NCBI GenBank assembly: GCA_030611015.1
Contig: JAUWQP010000007.1
Span: 1-35,151 of the forward strand
Source: Chloroflexota bacterium
GTDB taxonomy: Bacteria > Chloroflexota > Dehalococcoidia > GIF9 > AB-539-J10
Direction of reading: 5' to 3'
Length of the DNA stretch: 35,151 bases
A program made the translations under genes and the position numbers. Below, one piece after another: positions 15,703-18,832 of the stretch. The notes under the pieces were generated by a model. It worked only from the letters and a program-made list of their open reading frames with translations, ran no database searches and had not been told where the DNA came from. Every line of letters begins with the position of its first letter. Position 1 is the stretch's first letter.

Positions 15703-16206
15703 ATGAGTAATACCAGAGATAATTTGGAGACTGCTTTTGCTGGAGAAAGCCAGGCTAACCGTAAATATTTATTCTTCGCTGAAAAGGCTGAACAGGAAGG
15801 GTACAAACAGATAGCAAAGTTGTTTCGTGCCGCAGCCGATGCCGAGACAGTGCATGCCGGAAATCACATGAAGGTTATGCAAGGAATAAAATCAACGAGA
15901 GAAAATCTGCTAGCTGCAAAGGGTGGCGAGAACTATGAGTTTACTGAAATGTATCCTGAATTCATAAAGCAGGCTGAGGCCGAAGGCAACGACAAAGCCA
16001 AAAATAGCTTTGACCTGGCAAATAAAGTCGAGCAGATTCATCATGGTTTGTTTACCGCTGCCCTAAGCAAGATTGAAAAGGGTGAGACTATCGGGGAGAA
16101 ACCAATCTACGTTTGCCAATATTGCGGCAACACGGTTGAGGGGGAAGCCCCTGAAAAATGTCCCATCTGCGGAGCACCCAAGAAAATGCTCAAGCTCATA
16201 GAGTAG
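15703..16206 (+). CDS. rubrerythrin
   Basis: Ferritin-like domain FAGESQANRKY plus C-terminal rubredoxin CQYCG...CPICGAPK. Confidence 0.95.
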   Translation: MSNTRDNLETAFAGESQANRKYLFFAEKAEQEGYKQIAKLFRAAADAETVHAGNHMKVMQGIKSTRENLLAAKGGENYEFTEMYPEFIKQAEAEGNDKAKNSFDLANKVEQIHHGLFTAALSKIEKGETIGEKPIYVCQYCGNTVEGEAPEKCPICGAPKKMLKLIE

Positions 16207-16341: not shown

Positions 16342-16563
16342 ATGGCTGAGATAAAGGTGGATTGCACAGGTGAAACTTGCCCTATTCCTTTAGTTGAGAC
16401 TCGCAAGGCTCTGAGGAAAGCAAAAGAGGGCGATATTGTGGAGGTTATTGGAACGCATCCTGCTTCCAAGAAAGAGATACCGATGGCGGTAAAGGCTTTG
16501 GGACTGGAGCTCATTGGTGTACAGGAGGAAGGTGGGATGTGGAAAATAAAAATACGTAAGTAG
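16342..16563 (+). CDS. TusA/SirA-like sulfurtransferase
   Basis: DCTGETCPIPLVETRKAL, CPxP motif. Confidence 0.92.
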   Translation: MAEIKVDCTGETCPIPLVETRKALRKAKEGDIVEVIGTHPASKKEIPMAVKALGLELIGVQEEGGMWKIKIRK

Positions 16564-16578
16564 GAGGAGGAAGAGACT

Positions 16579-16998
16579 ATGGCTGGCAAAGTTACTATAA
16601 TAGTTCATAGCGGCGACATGGATAAGGTGTATAGCGCCCTTATTGTAGCCAACGGCGCCCTTGCCATGGGGATGGAAGCATCACTTTTCTTCACCTTCTG
16701 GGGTCTCCAGCGCCTCAAGAAAGGTGAGCTGGAAAAGGGGCCTCTATCTAAAATGAACATGCTGGGCATTGGTAAATGGATGGTGAAGCGGAGGATGAAG
16801 AAAGCCGGAGCGGCGTCTCTGGAGAGGCTACTACAGGACTTCCACGAGCTTGGAGGGAAGATACTCGCCTGCGACATGACAATGCAGATAATGGGCATAA
16901 AGAAAGAAGACCTCCGTGATGCCTTGATATCGGATTACTGTGCAGTTGGTACCTACATAGATGAGGCTAAGGAATCAACAATAACCCTCTTTATATGA
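16579..16998 (+). CDS. DsrE/DsrF/DsrH-like family protein
   Basis: MAGKVTIIVHSGDMDKVYSALIVANGALAMGMEASLFFTFWGL; GGAGGAGGAAG SD. Confidence 0.8.
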   Translation: MAGKVTIIVHSGDMDKVYSALIVANGALAMGMEASLFFTFWGLQRLKKGELEKGPLSKMNMLGIGKWMVKRRMKKAGAASLERLLQDFHELGGKILACDMTMQIMGIKKEDLRDALISDYCAVGTYIDEAKESTITLFI

Positions 16999-18194
16999 CG
17001 GGGGAGAAAATGGTAGGCAAACTTATTTACCTGGACAACGCATCGGCTACTCGTTTGGATGAGCGGGTGCTGGAGGCGATGAGACCGTATTTCTTTGATA
17101 CATACGCGGTTGCCACCTCAGAATTTGGCTATTCTCAGGGAATAGAAGCTCGAGAGACGTTAGACGAAGCCAGAGAGGCTCTGGCCAATGCTTTAGGTGC
17201 TGCCCCCGAAGAGTTCATTTTCACTTCGGGAAGTACCGAGTCCTCCAACATTGCCCTCAAAGGAGTGGTACTGGCCTTCGGTAAAAAGAAAGGCAAACAC
17301 ATAATTGTGTCAAAGATCGAGGATTTCCCTGTGCTTCACAGCGCACAAGCGCTGGAAAAACAGGGCTTTCAGGTGACCTATCTGGATGTTGATGGGGAGG
17401 GCTTTGTAAATCTGGACCGGCTCAGAGATTCCATAACCAATGAGACCATTCTGGTTTCCATCCAGCATGCCAACCAGGAAATAGGTACCATCCAGGATAT
17501 CGAAGCTGTCGGTCGTATCTGCCGTGAAAAAGAGGTGCTTTTCCACACTGACGCTACTCATACCTTTAGGCGAGTCCCTCTGGACATGAAGAAGATAGCT
17601 GTGGACCTGGTCACTGTATCGGCACACACCATCCACGGCCCTAAGGGCACAGGAGGCCTGTGCATCCGCCAAGGAACACAAATAGCCAAGTGGATGGATG
17701 GCGGGTTTCAGGAATTCAATCTCCGGGCGGGGCTGGAAAACATACCTGGGGCGGTGGGATTTGCCAAAGCGGTGGGACTGGTCACCCCCGAAGAAACCAA
17801 GCGCCTGCAAGAAATGCGAGACCGCCTTATTGACCGCATGCTTGCCGAGATACCCCACAGCACCCTGAATGGCCCTCGACAGAAGAGGCTCCCACAGAAT
17901 GCCAATATTACCTTCCACTTTGTTGAGGGCGAGTCCATGACCCTGCATCTCGATATGCGTGGTTTTGCCGTGAGCACCGGCTCTGCCTGTTTCAGCCGCT
18001 CTCTGGAGGCCAGCCACGTCATCTCTGGGATAGGCGGCGACCACGAAAGGGCACACGGGTCAATACGCTTCACCTTTGGGCATTATAACACCGTGGAAGA
18101 TGTGGACGCTGTTGTCCGAGCATTAGCTGAGATAGTGAAAGAACTGAGAAGCATCAGTCCTTTAGGAAAAAACGCAGAAAAGGAGGAGGCTTAG
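16995..18194 (+). CDS. IscS/NifS-like cysteine desulfurase homologue lacking the PLP lysine
   Basis: TSGSTESSNIALKG, DATHTF, VSAHTIHGPKG (Thr where Lys expected), STGSACFSRSLE; ATGA overlap with DsrE-like CDS. Confidence 0.9.
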   Translation: MTGEKMVGKLIYLDNASATRLDERVLEAMRPYFFDTYAVATSEFGYSQGIEARETLDEAREALANALGAAPEEFIFTSGSTESSNIALKGVVLAFGKKKGKHIIVSKIEDFPVLHSAQALEKQGFQVTYLDVDGEGFVNLDRLRDSITNETILVSIQHANQEIGTIQDIEAVGRICREKEVLFHTDATHTFRRVPLDMKKIAVDLVTVSAHTIHGPKGTGGLCIRQGTQIAKWMDGGFQEFNLRAGLENIPGAVGFAKAVGLVTPEETKRLQEMRDRLIDRMLAEIPHSTLNGPRQKRLPQNANITFHFVEGESMTLHLDMRGFAVSTGSACFSRSLEASHVISGIGGDHERAHGSIRFTFGHYNTVEDVDAVVRALAEIVKELRSISPLGKNAEKEEA

Positions 18195-18196
18195 AG

Positions 18197-18832
18197 ATGA
18201 AATTTCCATATACCGACATAGTACTGGAGCACTTTCGACACCCGCGCAACGTAGGTAAGATTGAGAATCCCGATGGCAAGGCAACCGAAGGCAGCCCAGC
18301 CTGTGGGGACATGGTGTCTGTCTACATAAAGGTTGACCCCAAGACGAATACTATCGCGGACGTCAAGTTTGAGTCTTACGGCTGTGCTTCCAACATAGCT
18401 ACCGGCTCTATAATTACGGAGCTAGCTAAGGGAAAGACATTGGATGAAGCAAAGAACATTACCTGGAAAGAAGCTTCAGAAGCCCTGGGAGGTCTTCCCA
18501 AAATTAAAGCCCATTGTTCGGTGCTCGCTGTAGAAGGCTTACGCTCGGCCATACAAAACTATGAAGAGCGCCACGGCCTGGTCAAAGAAAAGAAGCCGAC
18601 CACGGTGGAGGTAGTACGTCAGCGCCTCAGGAAAGTCATATACCCTCTGACCGGGTTAAACGTGGTGCGTACAAACCTGGTGCAAGATATTAAGGTAAAG
18701 GACGGAACTGTACGGGTGCTTGTCGATTTGCCTCGAGATCACCAGTTTGCTCACAACATAAAGGACGAAATACTGGAGAAGATAGAGCCCCTATGGGACG
18801 TCAAAGAAGTAGTGGTCGAATTCACGGAATAG
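18197..18832 (+). CDS. IscU-like scaffold fused to C-terminal DUF59/MIP18-like domain
   Basis: SPACGDMV, YGCASNIATGS, KAHCSVLA; then VRQRLRKVIYPLTGLNVVRTNLVQDIKVKDGTVRVLVDLP...WDVKEVVVEFTE. Confidence 0.85.
   Translation: MKFPYTDIVLEHFRHPRNVGKIENPDGKATEGSPACGDMVSVYIKVDPKTNTIADVKFESYGCASNIATGSIITELAKGKTLDEAKNITWKEASEALGGLPKIKAHCSVLAVEGLRSAIQNYEERHGLVKEKKPTTVEVVRQRLRKVIYPLTGLNVVRTNLVQDIKVKDGTVRVLVDLPRDHQFAHNIKDEILEKIEPLWDVKEVVVEFTE

Follow-up and report, generated by a model that had tools for sequence, protein, structure and literature searches.

What can a protein with the fold of IscS do once the lysine that forms the Schiff base with PLP has been lost? The question is raised by a gene in the window, as the whole stretch of DNA that was analysed is called here (35,151 nucleotides), and it bears on how Fe-S clusters are built without a cysteine desulfurase in sulfide-dwelling anaerobes. 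An earlier note on this DNA read SAHT instead of SAHK in the encoded protein and suggested a non-canonical role as a sulfur carrier or scaffold. The segment VSAHTIHGPKG is indeed the translation of positions 17616-17648 on the forward strand. In an alignment that takes E. coli IscS (locus L191) as its reference, the ACC codon of Thr212 falls on the Schiff-base lysine, Lys206. The gene and the residues discussed below are as follows, T being the class to which the window protein belongs.

16995-18194, forward strand: lysine-less IscS-like protein of the T class, 399 aa (PF00266, 2.3e-68, 231 bits)
17322-17324, forward strand: Asp110, at the position of the PLP-stacking His104 (Asp in 85/85 T-class rows; His in 60/60 canonical rows)
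17559-17561, forward strand: His189, at the position of Gln183 (His in 85/85 T-class rows; Gln in 60/60 canonical rows)
17628-17630, forward strand: Thr212, at the position of the E. coli IscS Schiff-base Lys206 (Thr in 85/85 T-class rows; Lys in 60/60 canonical rows)
17634-17636, forward strand: His214, at the position of Tyr208 (His in 85/85 T-class rows; Tyr in 56/60 canonical rows)
17988-17990, forward strand: Cys332, the retained mobile-loop cysteine, E. coli C328 (Cys in 85/85 T-class rows)

The joint alignment with E. coli IscS holds 85 T-class rows (84 distinct proteins) and 60 canonical rows. It bears out the other changes that had been pointed out: SKIEDFPVL places Asp110 on His104, DATHT places His189 on Gln183, and SACFS keeps the catalytic cysteine in every T-class row. 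A different lysine at the PLP position, named in the earlier note as what would speak against its reading, was looked for in the same alignment with E. coli IscS, and none occupies that position. The next lysine of the window protein after Thr212 is K217, the ordinary lysine of the GPKG segment (HGPKG). Three further changes were added to those already described: N155 is replaced by Gln161, Y208 by His214 and T243, which is Thr in 60/60 canonical rows, by Leu247. Within the T class, Q161 is found in 83/85 rows, D186 in 85/85 and H211 in 82/85.

K206 and five other PLP-site positions are replaced across the 84 distinct relatives, and D180 and C328 are kept. Being fixed or nearly fixed in 85 rows, this pattern exceeds chance. 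The phosphate-cup positions behave differently, since S203 is Ser in 66 rows and Ala in 19, and T243 is replaced by Leu, Val, Ile or Met. The former PLP ring site is thus held constant, whereas the phosphate cup drifts. Because the Schiff-base lysine is gone and H104, N155, Q183 and T243 are replaced, T-class proteins are very unlikely to retain PLP-dependent cysteine desulfuration, as judged from the established mechanism of IscS.

Sequencing error, frameshift or decay of the gene can be ruled out. Threonine occupies the lysine position in 84 distinct relatives, and dN/dS between the window gene and five relatives lies at 0.07-0.18 (dS is saturated in the two most distant pairs), so that the gene is under purifying selection.

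The fold is that of the class-V aminotransferases. In addition to the match to PF00266, the AF2 model (pLDDT 82, pTM 0.84) superposes with Foldseek TM values of 0.87-0.91 on human Nfs1, E. coli IscS and A. fulgidus IscS; confidence is low at the N- and C-termini, at residues 40-42 and 235-246 and in the Cys loop 331-340. The closest solved structures are those of A. fulgidus IscS, 4eb5/4eb7/4hvk and 4r5f (1.3e-99). The best NCBIfam matches are NifS/IscS models, all under their curated cut-offs (443.8 against 530.75 for the equivalog TIGR03402; 363.4 against 643.2 for TIGR02006). Compared with canonical IscS/NifS such as E. coli IscS, a type I protein, the window protein shares the fold, the dimer family, the catalytic Cys in a mobile SGSAC loop and the C-terminal SPL segment. 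It differs from E. coli IscS in having neither the PLP lysine nor most PLP contacts, and no hscAB/iscA/fdx operon accompanies it. The fold, the loop Cys and the SPL segment, all kept in the T class, are the features that a platform for IscU needs.

The gene is part of a compact cassette that encodes its own IscU and two small sulfur carriers.

15703-16206, forward strand: rubrerythrin, upstream neighbour outside the core cassette (PF02915/PF21349)
16342-16563, forward strand: TusA-like sulfur carrier, 73 aa, with Cys13 in CPxP (PF01206, 9.7e-24; C13 in 74/74 loci)
16579-16998, forward strand: DsrE-family sulfur carrier (DrsE_2 type), 139 aa, with Cys98, codon 16870-16872 (PF13686, 2.6e-37; PF02635, 8.8e-8; C98 in 74/75 loci)
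18197-18832, forward strand: IscU (NifU_N, aa 5-126) with DUF59/FeS_assembly_P (aa 139-206), 211 aa (PF01592, 4.1e-42; PF01883, 5.1e-12)

The gaps between tusA, dsrE, iscS and iscU are 15, -4 and 2 bp, with dsrE overlapping the start of iscS by 4 bp. Both carriers match their family profiles and have the carrier cysteine, and C36, D38, C63 and C107 of IscU are invariant in 80/80 loci. The nearest solved chain to the window IscU is A. fulgidus IscU, 4eb5_C (2.7e-41), from the same complex as the IscS match. A scan for promoters and terminators gave sites no commoner than in shuffles, and a plasmid search returned only distant matches, below 60% identity.

Twelve close orthologues in the class share 72-94% identity, and identity then falls sharply to about 49% for canonical proteins. 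Named genomes were scanned as well, and the best 80 of the 170 relatives detected there were taken further. In every one of these best 80 of 170, K206 is replaced by Thr, H104 by Asp and Q183 by His, C328 remains Cys, and in nearly all of them TusA, DsrE and IscU-DUF59 adjoin iscS, in the order TusA-DsrE-IscS(T)-IscU/DUF59 seen in the window. Alignment, loci and tree thus agree with the expectation that the change from Lys to Thr would be conserved in an orthologue clade keeping these neighbours.

Among the best 80, the bacterial carriers belong to Dehalococcoidia and other Chloroflexota, Syntrophales and other Thermodesulfobacteriota, Nitrospirota, Atribacterota and Bacillota (Pelotomaculum, Acidaminobacter, Anaerobium and others). 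The archaeal carriers are Methanosarcina, Methanolobus, Methanomethylovorans, Methanofastidiosum, a Methanomassiliicoccaceae MAG and an Altiarchaeales genome. Most T-class genomes are MAGs, so an individual assignment may be mistaken. The groups named so far are all taken here to be anaerobic.

No fifth gene of the cassette was found to be conserved beyond single lineages; rubrerythrin, racemase-like, FdhD and other genes are lineage-bound. Rubrerythrin occurs only in close relatives (L061, L062 and L064 among the best 80 of 170). An Asp/Glu/hydantoin racemase-like gene (PF01177) lies between a T-class iscS and iscU at L093:1424-2086, and near the cassette also in L096, L097, L109 and L117, a Dehalococcoidia subgroup. 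A gene of the FdhD-NarQ family (PF02634), which serves sulfur transfer to formate dehydrogenase, is found in four loci (L077:437-1258, and near the cassette in L066, L069 and L074).

Is the association with sulfur carriers peculiar to lysine-less proteins? It was counted in loci flanked on each side by 3 kb or more of sequence, excluding canonical loci beside a lysine-less gene. Within 3.5 kb, tusA is present in 71/73 lysine-less loci (53/54 in the T class, and 8/8 and 10/11 in the Q/E and D classes described below) and dsrE in 65/73, against 0/20 for each in a canonical sample drawn mainly from Dehalococcoidia. Fisher's exact test gives p 2e-18; since the loci are related, this value reflects one to three events, with three independent ones as the upper limit. 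L074 and L180 are canonical genes that stand beside a lysine-less gene and hence have tusA and dsrE nearby too.

Lysine-less IscS proteins form three classes: T (the window), D (A. fulgidus and its relatives) and Q/E (Dehalococcoidia). The D class has the motif SSND, with Q183A and H205N, and keeps H104. The Q/E class has the motif AGNQ, again with Q183A and H205N. Neither the D nor the Q class gained the pocket residues of the T class in the alignment. In a tree of 93 rows, each class is a clade of its own with support near 100. A single clade of all three is nevertheless not rejected by the AU test (p 0.21); T with D is weakly rejected (p 0.037), and D with Q/E is not (p 0.42). The lysine has thus been lost one to three times.

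The Q/E proteins (L027 and relatives) are a second lysine-less class in the genus of the window. They resemble the window protein in having Gln/Glu instead of lysine and in an operon with IscU, TusA and usually DsrE. They differ in keeping H104, in the changes of Q183 to Ala and H205 to Asn, in an upstream ferredoxin that is often present, and in their separate clade. Their operons usually carry a 4Fe-4S ferredoxin, a zinc-ribbon protein, TusA and DsrE. No genome among those examined contained both a T-class and a Q-class gene. Some Q-class operons (L283, L285, L287, L288 and L289) contain a DsrE of the window type (PF13686, 34-41% identity) and not of the Q type, so that this carrier is exchanged between classes.

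The best-studied example of a lysine-less IscS is that of A. fulgidus, which the earlier note had brought up. It is real: Asp takes the place of Lys (PMC7585200, PMC9769115; PDB 4eb5/4hvk/4r5f), the protein is inactive as a desulfurase, and Cys321 ligates the cluster on IscU (PMC7585200, PMC9769115). Loss of the lysine does not prove loss of PLP, because the A. fulgidus IscS-IscU complex 4EB5 contains PLP despite the Asp (PMC9769115); the pocket of the T class is altered beyond this.

This IscS (AfIscS, D199; 4eb5/4eb7/4hvk) is a relative of the window protein from another subclass and a separate clade. Both have the IscS fold, no Schiff-base Lys, a loop Cys and an adjacent IscU. Asp at the Lys position, the NxD motif and Ala at Q183 in the D class correspond to Thr, His and His in the window protein; A. 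fulgidus IscS also keeps H104, Y208 and mostly T243 (T/S), its IscU has no DUF59 domain, and its DsrE is another, Q-like one. The complete A. fulgidus genome (G544, 2,178,400 bp; 100% match to 4eb5) contains two iscS genes, both without the Lys and both between dsrE and iscU; one has tusA too, in the order tusA-dsrE upstream. No other IscS-type gene is present among the class-V matches of that genome.

Another described protein is M. acetivorans IscS1 (MA0808), which is without the PLP-binding residues including Lys, has the motif STGSACFS, and is clustered with IscU1 (MA0807, 24.2 kDa) and with four genes lacking an assigned function, not identified as TusA or DsrE; IscS1/IscU1 were not purified in soluble form (PMC7585200). 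The Methanosarcina loci examined here belong to the T class, encode TusA, DsrE and IscU-DUF59 alongside, and fit this description. M. acetivorans IscS1/IscU1 probably belong to the same family, MA0808 having been compared by its description.

Given a T-class clade with kept neighbours and an inactive lysine-less IscS in A. fulgidus, the carrier or scaffold role suggested at the outset is the best reading, and each point of the earlier note that sequence could test has held. On balance, the protein is probably a pseudo-desulfurase: a dead IscS that serves as a docking platform for IscU and contributes a relay or ligand cysteine, with sulfur arriving through DsrE and TusA and not from cysteine. 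In this model, the fold would no longer form the PLP Schiff base and so would release no sulfur from cysteine. It would be kept as a dimeric platform on which IscU-DUF59 docks. Persulfide would most likely pass from DsrE to TusA and on to Cys332, directly to IscU, or both. Cys332 could act as a relay, as the fourth ligand during cluster building on IscU in the manner of A. fulgidus Cys321, or as both, and the DUF59 domain may then help to hand over the cluster.

The proposed route resembles the Tus/DsrE relay (TusA, TusBCD, DsrEFH) in that both rely on TusA and on carriers of the DsrE fold whose cysteines are conserved. It differs in that the window carriers are joined to a predicted dead IscS and an IscU-DUF59 scaffold, with no genes for tRNA thiolation or sulfur oxidation beside them. 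E. coli TusA takes sulfur from IscS, so sulfur flow in the cassette could run the opposite way. A further point of comparison is the MIS system (MisS/MisU), described at second hand as a minimal pairing of IscS and IscU in which the desulfurase is active (PMC12442378).

The main rival to persulfide supply by DsrE and TusA is direct supply of sulfide. Here the protein would only hold IscU and lend Cys332, free sulfide would be the source, and TusA and DsrE would serve tRNA thiolation or sulfur homeostasis. A. fulgidus IscS already shows that a protein devoid of desulfurase activity can supply a Cys ligand (PMC7585200, PMC9769115), and in anaerobic, desulfurase-deficient E. coli that has no IscS, sulfide is enough to supply IscU (PMC13015791). 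This explanation is nonetheless rather unlikely, for tusA and dsrE stand in the tight operon of nearly all lysine-less loci and near none of the 20 canonical ones, and no tRNA-related gene is conserved near the cassette.

The constancy of the former ring site suggests another explanation, a pocket repurposed so that D110, D186, H189, H211 and H214 bind a metal or small ligand, making the protein an iron donor, a persulfide reductase or a sulfide sensor. In all 85 rows D110, D186, H189, T212 and H214 are invariant, whereas S203 and T243 drift, as such a site would predict; these constant residues may, however, only keep the fold or a loop, and the D and Q classes have not acquired the same set. 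Such a function is doubtful. Equally doubtful is the broader proposal that the T class is a cross-domain Fe-S system of anaerobes independent of cysteine sulfur, in which DsrE and TusA would charge the pseudo-IscS and a rebuilt metal or ligand site (D110/D186/H189/H211/T212/H214) would take part in feeding IscU-DUF59.

Many T-class genomes also encode a canonical IscS. The cassette may therefore supplement cysteine-derived sulfur and not replace it, and the lysine-less protein could also be a subunit that regulates a canonical IscS from another locus of the genome or forms heterodimers with it. In the IscS homodimer, each subunit receives its T243 contacts from its partner. This arrangement is improbable, however, since A. 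fulgidus has lysine-less IscS only, the operon brings its own IscU, and the genomes G421, G422 and G423 yielded no canonical IscS, nor did the window's assembly, whose completeness of 88.6% leaves absence from that genome unproven.

That the protein is still a desulfurase of altered chemistry, with PLP bound non-covalently and another base, is barely credible: PLP does sit in the A. fulgidus structure despite the Asp (PMC9769115), and Asp180 and Cys328 are kept, but the T class replaces H104, N155, Q183, K206 and T243, whereas the A. fulgidus class keeps H104 and T/S243.

Lysine-less IscS is already known. The cross-domain cassette and its link to tusA and dsrE appear undescribed; the open-access papers searched included none that joins TusA and DsrE to lysine-less IscS or describes such a cassette. 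The rule that lysine-less IscS occurs with TusA and DsrE names candidate sulfur donors, those of A. fulgidus IscS-IscU included, and is directly testable. It also means that the annotation "cysteine desulfurase" is probably wrong for proteins of many anaerobes and methanogens.

Other genes of related function were also noted. The only other desulfurase-like match in the window's assembly, a class-V protein at L189:3691-5265 (G000:C25), was ruled out as an IscS; it is a Lys-bearing TIGR01976 (VC1184-type) protein. The window's genome encodes another IscU-like protein, its second, at L194:3581-4096 (G000:C52), beside an Mrp/ApbC-type ATPase and without IscS. Finally, a 1136 aa frame at L281:1031-4441 (G010:C4) joins a molybdopterin oxidoreductase to a C-terminal, complete, canonical Lys-bearing NifS/IscS domain, and similar long frames occur in G009:C96, G013:C139, G014:C13 and G408:C1. 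The fusion may provide the Mo/W cofactor with a sulfur donor of its own.
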